DNA of 64,000 bases. Origin: Defluviitaleaceae bacterium (GTDB lineage: Bacteria; Bacillota; Clostridia; Lachnospirales; WRAX01). The DNA lies in assembly GCA_009780415.1 (NCBI GenBank), contig WRAC01000003.1, positions 1 through 64,000 of the forward strand. The letters are read 5' to 3'. A program made the position numbers and the translations under genes. Each line of letters starts with the position of its first letter. Positions within the stretch are counted from its first letter, which is position 1. Under the pieces are notes generated by a model. The model did no database searches and had not been told where the DNA came from. It saw nothing but the letters and a program-made list of their open reading frames with translations. Shown here piece by piece: positions 10,844 through 17,119 of the stretch.

Positions 10844-10949
10844 TAGTTGAATTTAAATACAATAAAATGGTAAAATATGGATTTAAATTATGAAATGCAG
10901 TAATAATCCGTCTTGGGTCAAGCATAGACTGGCAATGAGGTGTTTGTAC

Positions 10950-11531
10950 ATGCTGAACTATCTGTGGGCGGCGTTTATTTTGATAGGGGTTGTATATGCC
11001 GCGTTTTCGGGCAATATTGACCAGCTTACGAGCGGGGCGCTGGATTCGTCGGTTGACGCGGTTAATCTTTGCATCAGGATGCTGGGTATCATGTGCATGT
11101 GGACGGGTCTGATGAAGATAGCCGAAAAAAGCGGCTTGATTTACGCCATGTCGCGCGGACTTGCTCCCGCACTGAGTAAGCTCTTTCCCACCTTGCCGCG
11201 TGACGGTAAGGCAATGGAGCATATATCCACAAACATGATCGCCAACATTCTGGGTTTGGGCTGGGCCGCGACGCCGCCGGGCATAAAGGCGATGGAGGAG
11301 CTGCAAAAGCTGAACCCGGATAAAACAAGGGCCAGCAAGGAAATGTGTATGTTTCTGATAATAAACCTCTCCAGCTTACAGCTTGTAACAATAAACATCA
11401 TCGCTTACCGCGCCCAATATAACTCCGTAAGCCCGCAGGAGATTATCGGGCCTGGGATATTGGCGACGCTGTGTTCCACCGCTGCAGGCATTATTTTTGC
11501 TAAAATAATGGAAAAGAGGCGTAATACATGA
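10950..11531 (+). CDS. spmA: Spore maturation protein A
   Basis: A membrane protein of 193 residues from the ATG at 10950. An in-frame ATG exists at 10890, but GAGGTG sits 7 nt before 10950 and the shorter product matches known SpmA length. It starts MLNYLWAAFILIGVVYAAF and has several hydrophobic helices. SpmA and SpmB are needed for spore core dehydration and heat resistance in Bacillus and Clostridium. The motif NIFGLG-like NMIANILGLGWAATPPGIKA is typical. It overlaps spmB by ATGA. Confidence 0.92.
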   Translation: MLNYLWAAFILIGVVYAAFSGNIDQLTSGALDSSVDAVNLCIRMLGIMCMWTGLMKIAEKSGLIYAMSRGLAPALSKLFPTLPRDGKAMEHISTNMIANILGLGWAATPPGIKAMEELQKLNPDKTRASKEMCMFLIINLSSLQLVTINIIAYRAQYNSVSPQEIIGPGILATLCSTAAGIIFAKIMEKRRNT

Positions 11532-12061
11532 GGGCAATGCTCTTTGTGTCAAATATAATGATTCCGTTGTTGTTCGTGGTCATTATCGTATATGGTCTGT
11601 TAAAAAAAGTCCGTGTTTACGACGCTTTCATAGAAGGAGCAAAAGACGGTTTTTCCACCGTGCTCACTATTTTACCCACACTTATCGGCCTGATGGTATC
11701 CATCGGCATACTGCGCACTTCCGGCGCTCTGACCGCGCTTTCATCCTTGTTACAACCGGCTTGCGCCACCATAGGCTTCCCCGAACCCGCTCTGCCGCTT
11801 ACATTGATGCGCCTGGTTTCATCCTCAGCCTCCGTCGGCCTCCTTCTTGACATTTTCAAAACCTACGGCCCGGATTCTTTCACAGGCCGCTTCGTATCCG
11901 TGATGATGAGTTCCACTGAAACTATATTCTATACTTTAAGCATCTATTTCGTAGCCGTGAAAATAACAAAAACGCGCTACACCCTAGCCGGAGCTTTAAT
12001 TGCCAACTTCGCAGGTATAGCCGCGTCTTTAATTATAACCGACCTAGTATTCGGCCGGTAA
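11528..12061 (+). CDS. spmB: Spore maturation protein B
   Basis: A 177-residue membrane protein translationally coupled to spmA by a 4-bp ATGA overlap. It carries the gate-like motif region GAKDGFSTVLTILPTLIGLM near residue 37 and the segment SSTETIFYTLSIYF, both typical of SpmB. It acts with SpmA in the forespore or mother-cell membrane during late spore maturation. The next feature downstream, the SRP RNA, is read in the opposite direction and ends 33 bp away. Confidence 0.93.
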   Translation: MRAMLFVSNIMIPLLFVVIIVYGLLKKVRVYDAFIEGAKDGFSTVLTILPTLIGLMVSIGILRTSGALTALSSLLQPACATIGFPEPALPLTLMRLVSSSASVGLLLDIFKTYGPDSFTGRFVSVMMSSTETIFYTLSIYFVAVKITKTRYTLAGALIANFAGIAASLIITDLVFGR

Positions 12062-12093: not shown

Positions 12094-12358
12094 CCGTGCG
12101 CCCGCCGTCGACACTTTCCTCCGGGCGTAAACACGGCAGCCTGCTCCGGCCAAGCACTCCCACGGCACATGCCGGTAACGGTTTAGCGCTGCTTCCTTCC
12201 GGACCTGACGCGGTTCGCCGGCCGCCATTGCGCGGGACTTGACCATCAACACCGCTTACCATGCGCAGACCCCACAAAAAAGGAGCCTAAGGACGGGCGT
12301 CACCTCCGCTGCAGCGGACTGCGGATACAGGGAACCGCTACCTCCCCGGCTAGCACGG
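12094..12358 (-). ncRNA. ffs: Signal recognition particle RNA, large Gram-positive type
   Basis: Read on the minus strand, the RNA starts CCGTGCTAGCCGGGGAGG and carries the near-invariant domain IV core GGTCCGGAAGGAAGCAGC. Its 3' end, GCGCACGG, pairs with the 5' CCGTGC. At about 265 nt it includes the Alu domain, as in Bacillus and Clostridium scRNA. It pairs with Ffh to target nascent membrane proteins. A consensus promoter lies about 35 bp upstream, so the transcript is probably trimmed at the 5' end. Confidence 0.95.
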
Positions 12359-12562: not shown

Positions 12563-12635
12563 GGGCGCATAGCTCAGTTGGGAGAGCGCCAGCTCGACAA
12601 GCTGGATGCCGTAGGTTCAAGTCCTACTGTGCCCA
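12563..12635 (+). tRNA. tRNA-Val (GAC), with C at position 33
   Basis: A complete 73-nt cloverleaf. The acceptor is GGGCGCA/TGTGCCC with one G-U pair, the D arm GCTC/GAGC, the anticodon stem CCAGC/GCTGG and the T arm GTAGG/CCTAC with loop TTCAAGT. The discriminator is A. The CCA end is not encoded. The seven-base anticodon loop is TCGACAA, which gives anticodon GAC but places C at position 33 where nearly all tRNAs have U. The tRNA 3' side is followed by decayed integrase sequence, so the gene has served as an integration site. Confidence 0.92.
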
Positions 12636-12740: not shown

Positions 12741-12983
12741 TTAATTAAGTCGGAATTGCGGATAAAAGCTTCTTCTTGACATGGCGGTATAAAGATCGGT
12801 TGCATCATTGTTTGAGCGTCCTAGGAAAATTTTATGTGACATTTCATCTACACCTGCGGCGTACAAGTCTGTGGCGTATGTATTGATGTTTCGTGCAGTT
12901 CTTAAATACGTGATGTACTCAAAAATCGTGTTTTCCTCAACCGATATACAAGGCTTAGGAAACCACGGCGAGGAGGCGTTCAT
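12741..12983 (-). pseudogene. Tyrosine integrase C-terminal remnant
   Basis: A leftward frame contains TARNINTYATDLYAAGVD followed by LGRSNNDATDLYT. This lines up with the catalytic end of phage or ICE integrases (RHTYATDLY..AGVD....LGHS......YTH). The His of the R-H-x-x-R box is missing, the catalytic Tyr region is altered and no N-terminal part is present, so it cannot be active. Between it and tRNA-Val the sequence TTTTGACTCATTTTTGACCC resembles the usual integrase tail next to clostridial tRNA insertion sites. It marks an old element at this tRNA. Confidence 0.7.
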
Positions 12984-13341: not shown

Positions 13342-13620
13342 TTACGCTGTCTCGTTCAAATCGGAATTAAAAAGCTCAAGCTTAGCTTGAAGCATCATTT
13401 CAAGACGCGTGATTGCGTTGAGCATTTGTTCTACTGACTTGTTAAGCTTAAGCAATTGCGCAGGCGTTACGTCTTCCATTCCGATAATAGCCTGCATTTT
13501 TTCACCCTCAGCGTTCAGTATGTGGGCCAAAGCGGCTTCCTGTAAGGCTACCGATTGAATTATATCGGTTATAGCCTGATCGCGTGAGCCTTCACCCGGA
13601 GTGATTACTGGCATTCCCAT
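13342..13620 (-). CDS. Small protein made of the HILNAEGEK module (92 aa)
   Basis: The start is set at 13620, where AGGAGGTG lies 6 nt before the ATG (MGMPVITPGE); longer open sequence upstream lacks a site. After 12 residues the whole protein is one helical module: AITDIIQSVALQEAALAHIL, then NAEGEKMQ, then a leucine-rich amphipathic tail with LKLNKSVEQML. The same module ends the two rightward proteins that follow. There is no signal peptide or membrane segment. It is divergent from them across a 167-bp region. A role as an assembly or anchoring partner is inference. Confidence 0.75.
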   Translation of the reverse strand: MGMPVITPGEGSRDQAITDIIQSVALQEAALAHILNAEGEKMQAIIGMEDVTPAQLLKLNKSVEQMLNAITRLEMMLQAKLELFNSDLNETA

Positions 13621-13787
13621 TGAAACACCTCCTATCTGGATTTTATTGGCATTCTCATGCCTGCTGATAATATATGCAAGTCCAAAAGCGGTTGTTACCA
13701 TGTCAAGCGTTAATAATTTTGTGTCCAACCCTATCTATTTTACATACTATTATACGAGAAACAGATTTTACAATAGGAGTGATATTT

Positions 13788-14819
13788 ATGGATATGCTGC
13801 ATCCAAGCAGCGTTATTGAAATACCTTCAGATAATAGACAAACATTTCGAGGAATCACTTTTGACGGTTGTTTTTTCTACATGACGGTACCGCGTGAATG
13901 TGCCATTTATAAATTCAACAGAGAATTTGAAGTTGTTAACGTTGTCAAAGTTGACAAGCCGTATACCGCTATCTGTTATGACGCCTCAGAAAAAGTTCTT
14001 TGGGCCGCTACAGATAAACCCGACGTCATATATAAATTGAATCGCGGTTTAAAGGAAATCGGACAGCTTCATATTAAGACGGATAAGAAACTGTGTGACC
14101 CAATAGTGGGGCTTTCTTACGATTGTAAGAAAAATGTCCTGCTGGCCGCATACCTTGATTTTATTGCAGAGATTTCTAAGAAAAACGGGTGCGTTCATAT
14201 GTTGAATGCGGACTGTCCCGGAGACTATTCAGCGGTTCTGTCTATTGCCCCATATTATGCAGTTGTCTGCCAAAATACTTGCAAAAACAAGAAAAGACAG
14301 GATATTCTTTTCTATACGGATGAAGGATGCTTAATTAGGCACCTTTACATCGATGCGAAGTATAAAATTGTAAACCTGCTATTTTATCCATGCAAAACTA
14401 AAAACAAATCAGACTTCGAACTGATAATCCTGGCGTCTGATATATGCGGGCGACCGGTGATTCTTCGTTATGCGATGAAAGTATGCGGTATGAACCCGGA
14501 TTGTTGTAACTATAAGGTATGCAAAGAAAAATGCGAAGACGATGACGACAAAACCTGTGACCAGGCTTGTAATGACTTGCTTCAGTCTGTAGCGCTGGTT
14601 GAAGCCGCTCTTGCGCACATATTAAACGCGGAGGGCGAAAAATTACAGAAAGCAACTTCTATTGCGAAGACCACATGTGAACTTCTGGAAGTTAACAAGT
14701 CAATCAGTAATGCTATTGTGGGTGCGGCTCATTTGGAATTTTTACTGTTGCAAAAACTAGAAGTAATTAATAGTATATGCTCAAAAATAAAAAAGGAGGA
14801 AAATAAAAAATGGCTGTAG
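13788..14819 (+). CDS. Propeller-like protein with Cys-rich linker and C-terminal HILNAEGEK module
   Basis: The start at 13788 (MDMLHPSSVIEI) follows AGGAGT by 7 nt; the open frame extends upstream without a site. Residues 1-245 form repeated strands of the type FDGCFFYMTVP and CYDASEKVLWAATDK, suggestive of a beta-propeller. A short Cys-rich acidic linker follows (CGMNPDCCNYKVCKEKC, then DDDDKTC). The last 75 residues contain SVALVEAALAHILNAEGEK, the module shared with both neighbours. No signal peptide is present. The gene overlaps the next by 10 bp, so the two are probably co-translated. No enzyme motif is visible. Confidence 0.75.
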   Translation: MDMLHPSSVIEIPSDNRQTFRGITFDGCFFYMTVPRECAIYKFNREFEVVNVVKVDKPYTAICYDASEKVLWAATDKPDVIYKLNRGLKEIGQLHIKTDKKLCDPIVGLSYDCKKNVLLAAYLDFIAEISKKNGCVHMLNADCPGDYSAVLSIAPYYAVVCQNTCKNKKRQDILFYTDEGCLIRHLYIDAKYKIVNLLFYPCKTKNKSDFELIILASDICGRPVILRYAMKVCGMNPDCCNYKVCKEKCEDDDDKTCDQACNDLLQSVALVEAALAHILNAEGEKLQKATSIAKTTCELLEVNKSISNAIVGAAHLEFLLLQKLEVINSICSKIKKEENKKWL

Positions 14820-16867
14820 TATCAGGAAGAGTTATATTCGACAGCGCTAGAACCGCCCAATGGTCAGACGTGATGCCAGGTATCGCAGGCGTTGCGGTGG
14901 CGTTACAAAACATAGCGACTAACGAGCTCCTTGCTGTTTTAACAGGTACGAACGGAGAATACTCGTTTATTAATGTTCCCAACGGCAATTACCGTATAGT
15001 GGAATCTTATGGATTGAGTGCCGTTCCGGCTCCGGGAGATTTCAACAATGCGGCAGCAGCCCCAATACCCGACGGTGTCACACCGCCAATAAGCTATGTA
15101 ACCAACCCGCCTACCGGCTCAACAAACCTTGATTGCACAGTACCAAACACAATTTTTGTCACAGTGTCCGATAATGATTTAAATGATCAAAATTTTTTGA
15201 ACGGGACGGTTAGATACACGCCAATCACAGCTATAATGGATAGTTGCGCCACTATCGATCCTGAGAACCTACTTACGGACGCCGATGATGGAACTTTCGG
15301 CTTCTTCCCTGCCGGAACGCCGGCAAATACCGGAGCTCCAACAGAACCATACCCCGGATTTGTGCCGGGTTTCGCGTATGTATTACCCGATCCTGCTGTT
15401 GATACACCAGACGATGGCGAGTATACGGTTCAAAATATCATGAACAATTCATTGGCTAATGAGCGCGGCGCATGGTGGCGTATTGCCGACCATACCACAG
15501 GCAATGAAACAGGCAGGATGATGGTGATTAACGGGTATGATCCCGGAACGGTATTTATCCATGAAGAAGTAAACGTTTTGCCTAATACAAACTATCTGTT
15601 CAGCGCATGGATTTTGAATATGTTCAAAGTTACCGGGTACGCGAATCCCGCTTTTGGCGTTTTAATTACTGACGATAACGGCGATGTGCTGTACAGCCAC
15701 TCATTAGGCGCGGAAATTCCCGTAAACATGAACACCCCTGAATGGAAGCAAATCGGAACTGTGTTTAATTCCCAAGATAATACCCATTTAACATTTGAGT
15801 TTCTGAGCCAGGCGCCGGCGGCATGGGGTAACGATTACGCGTTGGACGATATTGCGCTCCATGAAGTGGATGTACCCGTTTTTACACCTGTTAAATCTGT
15901 TAACCCTTCCCGCGCCAATGTCGGAGATACCGTCACATACACGGTCACTTTGGAAAATACCTGCCAAAGCCCGTTGACAAACGTAAGGTTTCAGGATACC
16001 GTACCGAACGGCTTGTCATTTGTAACCGGCTCTGTAAGGGTCAACAGCGCTCCTAATCCCGGCGCAAACCCTAATATCGGGTTTACAATAGCGAACGTTC
16101 CGGGAGAATCGACTGTCACCATCCAATTTTCCGCTTTGGTCACTTCCGTGCCTTTAACTAATCCGGTGCTCAACCAAGCGGATATGAGCTATAACTATAC
16201 GCCGGTAGAGGGTGGAATTCCCGGTGAATCTAACGTATCTTCTAATATTGTCCCTTTGGATATCGGTGATTCCGCTGATTTGTCCGTTGTAAAAACGGGT
16301 TCGCCCAGCGTCGTAAAGCCCGGAGAAACGTTAACGTATACGATAACCGTCGCTAACGCCGGCCCTACGGCAGCAGAAAACGTAACTTTGACGGACGCTC
16401 ATCCTATTGGCCTCTCTAACCTTGAATACTCAATAGACGGAGGCGCCTCATTCCAAGCTTGGACCGGTAATATAAATCTTGGAATGATGGATGCCGGCGA
16501 TTCGTTGGTGGTTATCATACAAGGTACTGTAAACGAGGATATAGCAGGACGTTATATTTATAACATCGCCGAAGTGAGTTCCACAACGCCTGATCCCAAT
16601 TACTCGAATAATACTTCATCGATTAGAACAGAGATTTTTACCCCAAGAACACAAGCGATTACTGACATTATTGAATCTGTTGCGTTACAAGAAACCGCGC
16701 TTTCTCACATCCTAAACGCCGAAGGTGAAAAAATGCAAACGATGCTAGGTATGAATGATGTGACGATCGACCAGTTGTTTGAACTGAACCGTTCCGTTAC
16801 ACGTTTGGTTGGGACGATAACCAGATTGGAATCTGTTCTTCAAGCAAAGTTAAATAGTGTTAAGTAA
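14810..16867 (+). CDS. DUF11 / SdrD-B-like surface-type protein with C-terminal HILNAEGEK module
   Basis: A 685-residue protein starting behind AAAGGAGG. Domains in order: a prealbumin-like fold, residues 1-110 (VSGRVIFDS, NGEYSFINVPNGNYRIVE); a jelly-roll-like region, about 140-355 (WWRIADHTTGNETGRMMVIN, YALDDIALHEV); two DUF11 repeats, about 365-480 and 490-605 (NVGDTVTYTVTLEN and KPGETLTYTITVANAGPTAA); and the module SVALQETALSHILNAEGEKM in the last 75 residues. Domain types are those of surface proteins, yet there is no signal peptide, LPXTG or membrane helix. Mother-cell-made spore appendage or exosporium proteins such as the DUF11 proteins of Clostridium taeniosporum appendages would explain that; this is inference. 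Confidence 0.82.
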   Translation: MAVVSGRVIFDSARTAQWSDVMPGIAGVAVALQNIATNELLAVLTGTNGEYSFINVPNGNYRIVESYGLSAVPAPGDFNNAAAAPIPDGVTPPISYVTNPPTGSTNLDCTVPNTIFVTVSDNDLNDQNFLNGTVRYTPITAIMDSCATIDPENLLTDADDGTFGFFPAGTPANTGAPTEPYPGFVPGFAYVLPDPAVDTPDDGEYTVQNIMNNSLANERGAWWRIADHTTGNETGRMMVINGYDPGTVFIHEEVNVLPNTNYLFSAWILNMFKVTGYANPAFGVLITDDNGDVLYSHSLGAEIPVNMNTPEWKQIGTVFNSQDNTHLTFEFLSQAPAAWGNDYALDDIALHEVDVPVFTPVKSVNPSRANVGDTVTYTVTLENTCQSPLTNVRFQDTVPNGLSFVTGSVRVNSAPNPGANPNIGFTIANVPGESTVTIQFSALVTSVPLTNPVLNQADMSYNYTPVEGGIPGESNVSSNIVPLDIGDSADLSVVKTGSPSVVKPGETLTYTITVANAGPTAAENVTLTDAHPIGLSNLEYSIDGGASFQAWTGNINLGMMDAGDSLVVIIQGTVNEDIAGRYIYNIAEVSSTTPDPNYSNNTSSIRTEIFTPRTQAITDIIESVALQETALSHILNAEGEKMQTMLGMNDVTIDQLFELNRSVTRLVGTITRLESVLQAKLNSVK

Positions 16868-16869
16868 GT

Positions 16870-16911
16870 GTCAAATAGACCCGCGTCTGTACAGGGGCGG
16901 GTCTATTTGAC
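16870..16911 (+). terminator. Long perfect hairpin after the DUF11 gene
   Basis: A 15-bp perfect stem GTCAAATAGACCCGC / GCGGGTCTATTTGAC begins 3 bp after the stop codon. No T-run follows, so termination may be weak or the hairpin may protect the mRNA 3' end. Confidence 0.6.
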
Positions 16912-17119
16912 GCTTATGATCAAACTGTAATCAATCACCTTTTTAATTATTCTTAAAAATCCGACTACGGCCTATCGTCCTGTTCTCCATTTTAGATTGT
17001 CCATTATACGGCAAAATCTTTTCCGCTATTGCACGGTTGATTGTAGGTTTTGCGAAACCGCGTGCCTTGTACCCGCGACCACGTTCACAGAACGGGATTG
17101 AAAAACTAAAACGTATATT

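Follow-up and report, generated by a model that had tools for sequence, protein, structure and literature searches.

The S-ENA fibres (Ena1/2) of the Bacillus cereus group are spore fibres assembled from small subunits that carry no secretion signal. F-ENA fibres, described in Bacillus, Paenibacillus and Clostridia, are made of subunits joined via an N-terminal hook, with a collagen-like protein as their tip, and in F-Anchor-3 of Clostridium aceticum pilin (DUF4183) domains occur together with four DUF11 domains and a CsxA-like exosporium domain (PMC11952670). A further kind, A-ENA, is represented by PDB entry 9ihh, "Ex vivo spore-silk A-ENA fibers" (101 residues, 29 chains), which was used here by way of its title and deposited sequence; a literature search found no relevant paper on A-ENA or spore silk. 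In the present work we analysed positions 1 to 64,000 of contig WRAC01000003.1 from a Defluviitaleaceae bacterium (GCA_009780415.1), a stretch of 64,000 nucleotides called the window below, which harbors three neighbouring genes for proteins of 92, 343 and 685 residues that share a helical module. We consider it likely that the locus specifies a spore appendage of the A-ENA ("spore silk") type, in which the 92-residue protein is the subunit and the two other proteins are tagged partners docked to the fibre. The 92-residue protein resembles the S-ENA subunits in being small and signal-free, and with the A-ENA chain, fibre-forming by its entry title, it shares an MGMP leader and the module over its full length; compared with the 9ihh entry itself, the locus has in addition two larger proteins with a leaderless module at the C-terminus. 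The F-ENA system follows the same logic of a small subunit that is joined through an N-terminal peptide, of anchors combining subunit-like and DUF11 domains and of collagen-like tips (PMC11952670), but has an unrelated fold of beta trimers. The F-ENA subunit family DUF4183 (PF13799) was not found in this genome, nor was there a match to PF13157 of S-ENA, the latter being a weak negative as control genomes gave none either.

The module is about 75 residues long, makes up nearly the whole of the 92-residue protein and forms the C-terminus of both a propeller-like protein (343 residues) and the 685-residue protein. The modules of the two larger proteins are 49-66% identical to that of the small protein, and 29 columns are invariant among the three, so that the sharing of a module by three neighbouring proteins, first pointed out in a preliminary description of this DNA, was confirmed along with the open reading frames (ORFs) themselves. 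Exactly three copies are present in the whole 2.53-Mb assembly, all in this cluster. No family of Pfam, NCBIfam or PHROGs covers the module, and the library matches obtained with the module alone (PEP_C, VWA and Med9 in Pfam, RacA in NCBIfam and PHROG 24256) were dismissed as chance. Its sole significant solved relative was 9ihh chain A, to which phmmer aligned residues 1-86 of the 92-residue protein on residues 1-90, leader included (E 6.3e-18; about 51% identity over 86 residues), and to residues 12-88 of which it matched the 685-residue protein (E 3e-11). Family profiles likewise matched 9ihh (free form, built from 50 homologues, E 7.4e-24; propeller E 5.7e-13; DUF11 E 2.9e-15). The E of 6e-18 to a PDB chain, together with at least 565 stretches holding module relatives in the genome collection, places the resemblance far beyond chance. 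As the homology to the 9ihh protein extends along the entire free form, the module is that of a protein polymerising into spore fibres, and the 92-residue protein is most likely an A-ENA fibre subunit. The same homology lends good support to the earlier proposals of a docking or polymerisation tag with the 92-residue protein as its free form, and of a spore-surface fibre; the accompanying remark that the module had no described function is outdated, because a structure has been deposited.

AlphaFold2 modelled the module as two long helices with moderate confidence (pLDDT, the predicted local distance difference test score, about 75), at residues 252-292 and 296-341 of the propeller protein and 612-646 and 653-684 of the 685-residue protein. 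Among the 50 best Foldseek matches of the whole-chain models of these two proteins, a ranking driven by their large beta domains, 9ihh was absent; as the matches were to propeller, integrin and MAM-Ig domains instead, the evidence for the module fold comes from sequence. The run NAEGEK in helix 1 is almost invariant, with N36, A37, E38, G39 and K41 fully so in 50 aligned homologues. These conserved positions occupy all helix faces, exceeding the need of a lone two-helix hairpin, which suggests that the run may be buried between subunits. A phage origin of the module was rejected, as no phage record matched and only six distant loci, several with collagen-like payloads, lay in viral contigs; so was a plasmid origin, the lone plasmid match being a Bacillus velezensis replicon of 807 kb on which proA and proB are located. 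The features of the locus, in window coordinates, are as follows.

13342 to 13620 (stop codon included), reverse strand: gene of the 92-residue free module protein, a predicted A-ENA fibre subunit with an MGMPVITPG leader and a helical hairpin.
13668 to 13695, reverse strand: sigma-K-type promoter-like site ACAACCGCTTTTGGACTTGCATATATTA, its AC about 75 bases 5' of the start codon of the 92-residue protein's gene.
13788 to 14819, forward strand: 343-residue protein with beta-propeller, Cys-rich linker and C-terminal module, from the model, Foldseek and the YjiK profile match.
14559 to 14774, forward strand: leaderless C-terminal module of the propeller protein, residues 258-343, from the profile match to 9ihh.
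14810 to 16867, forward strand: 685-residue protein with a prealbumin/SdrD_B-like domain, a MAM/jelly-roll-like region, two DUF11 domains and a C-terminal module, from Pfam and the model.
16637 to 16864, forward strand: leaderless C-terminal module of the 685-residue protein, from the phmmer match to 9ihh_A and two model helices.
16865 to 16916, no strand assigned: inverted repeat with 26-nucleotide arms, 88% complementary and without a loop, directly 3' of the 685-residue protein's gene.

The length of 92 residues is taken as correct for the small protein because the ATG at 13620 is preceded by a strong Shine-Dalgarno sequence, AGGAGG, and the N-terminus that it gives is conserved in 50 of 50 aligned homologues; a 128-residue reading from a TTG was ruled out on the same grounds. 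For the propeller gene, the first ATG at 13674 was rejected in favour of the better start at 13788, which gives 343 residues. The stop end of this gene overlaps the ATG of the 685-residue protein's gene (14810) by 10 bases. The inverted repeat is the probable transcription end of the latter gene; no T-run was seen downstream of it. No hydrophobic N-terminal segment of the signal-peptide type is visible by hydropathy, the one criterion applied, in any of the three proteins, in agreement with the preliminary description.

Both larger proteins were as that description had named them. The model of the propeller protein (pLDDT 83) consists of 21 strands followed by two long helices, Foldseek matched it to propellers, and its profile matched YjiK (E 4e-7). 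It contains 21 Cys residues, of which several fall in the linker that precedes the module, and the linkers of its homologues are richer still in Cys. Such homologues lie in the same setting at ten loci (L005, L007, L008, L012, L016, L022, L037, L043, L048 and L058). The 685-residue protein, which has homologues at 50-62% identity, matched DUF11 in Pfam (E 1.7e-33, two domains) and the prealbumin-type SdrD_B (2e-6); its model gave MAM-Ig and integrin Ig-like matches that are indicative only (pLDDT 76; predicted template modelling score, pTM, 0.49).

The module was found in 13 of 293 sampled genomes of the class, 32 of 299 of the phylum and 16 of 58 near relatives. Among fully read loci, either the whole trio or a pair of the small gene and a propeller or DUF11 homologue recurs in Lachnospiraceae, Oscillospiraceae, Defluviitaleaceae and Erysipelotrichia (L005, L007, L008, L012, L014, L015, L022, L037, L039 and L043). 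Culturable species that have the trio include Blautia parvula, Faecalicatena faecalis and Longibaculum muris. In a tree of the modules from the fully read trio loci, which has few columns and unresolved deep forks, free, propeller and DUF11 modules separate, with 3 label changes against 17.7 when the labels are shuffled. Given this separation and the recurrence of the set, the three roles look like old, separate and long-lived positions instead of recent copies. Of the module classes, the free one is the most numerous, with 78 of 194 ORFs. In addition, very long proteins of up to about 1,300 residues with the module near the N-terminus were seen at L005, L009, L010, L011, L013 and L036, several of them with a recurring INVxxVxIDIPLxDxxAxAxAI-type stretch after the module.

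The leader of the small protein, MGMPxI, has M1, G2, P4 and I6 invariant in 50 of 50 aligned homologues. It is present in 64 of 70 free modules, in 25 of 40 N-terminal modules when a strict pattern is applied (visual inspection gives more) and in none of 50 C-terminal modules; the module classes are partly defined by a nearby start, and the lack of M..PxI in all 50 C-terminal modules is a property of their sequence. If the leader joins subunits, copies missing it would be confined to one fibre end, and a leaderless tail would then mark a protein placed there, as base anchor or cap. The F-ENA precedent favours a base anchor over a tip. We tentatively extend this, at somewhat below an even chance, to a proposal that A-ENA is a general spore-surface building system with a sequence-encoded polarity rule: leader-bearing modules would be chain-forming or, where an N-terminal module is joined to collagen or BclA, tip-forming, and leaderless C-terminal modules would be base anchors (the Cys-rich propeller and the MAM/DUF11 protein), within a fixed trio that is conserved from Clostridia to Erysipelotrichia.

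A link to the spore was sought in promoters, in the sporulation protein SpoIVA and in the payloads of the module. The pattern AC-N15-18-CATANNNT, which is of the type read by the late mother-cell factor sigma-K in B. subtilis (consensus PMC5749712), occurred within 130 bases upstream of 25 of 50 genes encoding leader and module, against 1.5 +/- 1.3 in shuffles and against 22 of 600 other ORFs of the same loci (Fisher p 9e-19). The single site of the 92-residue protein's gene, ACAACCGCTTTTGGACTTGCATATATTA, is weak by itself, as the whole window has 38 matches to the loose pattern. A sigma-E-type pattern was discarded as the family promoter, being not enriched (4 of 50, against 2.3 in shuffles). 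SpoIVA was present in all 21 module-bearing genomes at least 90% complete, compared with about three quarters of all sampled genomes (pooled p 0.0025, kinship ignored). The host itself is an endospore former, having SpoIVA, though split by an element, a sigma-E gene over the cut-off and SpmA/SpmB-like genes nearby. Rather than occurring mainly in vegetative cytoplasmic enzymes, the outcome against which the preliminary description had set its hypothesis, the module is joined to surface-type domains, and the payloads of 77 larger module proteins comprised Collagen (11), choice_anch_A, i.e., choice-of-anchor A (10), DUF11 (7), BclA_C (6), SdrD_B (6) and one BclB-related payload, with other domains of similar surface type. 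In the B. cereus group, BclA is the protein of the exosporium nap. In Bacillus velezensis (NZ_CP083716.1, 153420-157710) a protein combines module, collagen and BclA_C (E 1.5e-46), and the same stretch encodes a second module protein with Asp/Pro-rich repeats, a glycosyltransferase gene lying close to both; the module thus extends to Bacillus. The collagen-like BclA_C module protein might be related to ClpA-D of strain FZB42 (PMC4319854).

Together, the computed support for an A-ENA locus consists of the A-ENA chain homology, the recurring trio, the type of promoter and the spore-surface payloads; what we infer is fibre formation by these exact proteins, the role of the leader, the end positions and the anchor role. 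The 92-residue protein would be the fibre subunit, its two-helix module packing on those of its neighbours and the MGMPxI leader at its N-terminus probably linking successive subunits, while the propeller and DUF11 proteins would dock as minor subunits via their diverged C-terminal module copies. Lacking the leader, these partners would be placed at an end of the fibre, most likely at its base, where they would anchor it to the spore surface, and the Cys-rich linker may allow the propeller protein to be disulphide-linked to coat or exosporium. A signal peptide would be unnecessary, because the mother cell would produce the parts late in sporulation and then lyse.

Several results weigh against this account. 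The A-ENA identification draws on the title and sequence of the 9ihh entry, the model of the 685-residue protein is only moderate (pTM 0.49), and a CsxA-like domain was not identified in that protein. The propeller/DUF11 operon was without a clear sigma-K-type site, and no sigma-K gene scored above the curated cut-off in this genome, the best match being the sigma-E gene at C45; a sigma-K-type site is for this reason not assignable with confidence here. The sigma-K gene of this genome may be absent, diverged or split, and either sigma-E or a sigma-K of diverged or split form could recognise the mother-cell-type site. The SpoIVA association, which takes no account of phylogeny, is of modest strength, and the partners could be anchors, tips or caps.

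This last point bears on the most serious alternative, in which the propeller and DUF11 proteins are distal tip adhesins whose modules cap the growing end and whose propeller, MAM-like and DUF11 domains face outward. DUF11, SdrD_B, MAM-like and Ig-like domains are frequent in adhesins, and other module proteins bear collagen/BclA tips; those collagen/BclA proteins, the clear tip type, however have an N-terminal module, often with a leader-like segment, in contrast to the leaderless C-terminal module of the two proteins here, and a DUF11-rich protein is the anchor in F-ENA (PMC11952670), so that we regard a distal position as possible but less likely than not. Alternatively, the module could be a docking tag that binds one fixed receptor of the exosporium or coat, with the 92-residue protein as competitor or filler and no fibre in this organism. 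The payloads, being spore-surface domains, and the lack of a leader in C-terminal modules would fit such a tag, as would some genomes whose fetched loci include a C-terminal module protein and lack a free form. It is nevertheless unlikely, given that the free form, from the leader onward, matches the A-ENA fibre chain along its whole length, and that free modules, mostly leader-bearing, are the commonest class.

The ribbon-like appendages of Clostridium taeniosporum, with their P29a/P29b/GP85/CRD proteins containing DUF11, resemble the locus in having DUF11 proteins, a cluster with putative sigma-K promoters and collagen-like partners (PMC5749712). They are set apart from it here by their published description, not by genome comparison: the module's only structural relative is A-ENA, and the C. 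taeniosporum proteins are reported to have no significant orthologues in other clostridia (PMC5749712), against hundreds of module relatives, which makes an appendage of that kind very improbable. Least probable of all, and barely credible, is a function outside the spore, for example as an intracellular scaffold of vegetative cells. It would agree with the lack of visible signal peptides and of a sigma-K gene above cut-off in this genome, but is opposed by the ex vivo origin of 9ihh from spore fibres (by title), the mother-cell promoter type, the occurrence of SpoIVA in 21 of 21 genomes and the BclA_C and collagen payloads.

Other sporulation-related observations were made around the locus and in the rest of the genome. 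Just upstream of the trio, at 10890-12061 of the window, lie two adjacent Gate-domain proteins of the SpmA/SpmB (spore maturation) type, followed by a large bacterial signal recognition particle RNA (12094-12358, reverse strand) and a tRNA-Val (12563-12635). Near the latter, an 80-residue ORF (12741-12983, reverse strand) without a Pfam match resembles, on visual inspection, what is left of the C-terminus of a tyrosine recombinase (MSHKIFLGRSNNDATDLY). Elsewhere in this genome (C54:3000-12200, locus L112), spoIVA is split at about codon 408 by an element of about 6.9 kb, the 5' part lying at L112:352-1614 and the 3' part at about L112:8440-8740. The element carries a large serine recombinase with Resolvase and Recombinase domains (L112:5798-7381). 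The 9-bp repeat TATACATAT is present at both junctions (L112:1569 and 8458), and joining there would restore ...SAPSIHMIRAE... in frame. The element looks like a skin-type element excised during sporulation. Split or partial spoIVA matches were also seen in the relatives G010 (17-kb gap), G012, G004 and G002, and publications on the intervening elements gin (gerE) and yin (yabG) do not mention spoIVA.

The spore surfaces of most gut anaerobic spore formers are uncharacterised, and a module absent from Pfam, NCBIfam and PHROGs now connects a spore-fibre structure with hundreds of hypothetical proteins. Through the leader rule and the conservation of the trio, simple tests can address how clostridial spore fibres are started, anchored and tipped, and the module itself is a possible display tag.

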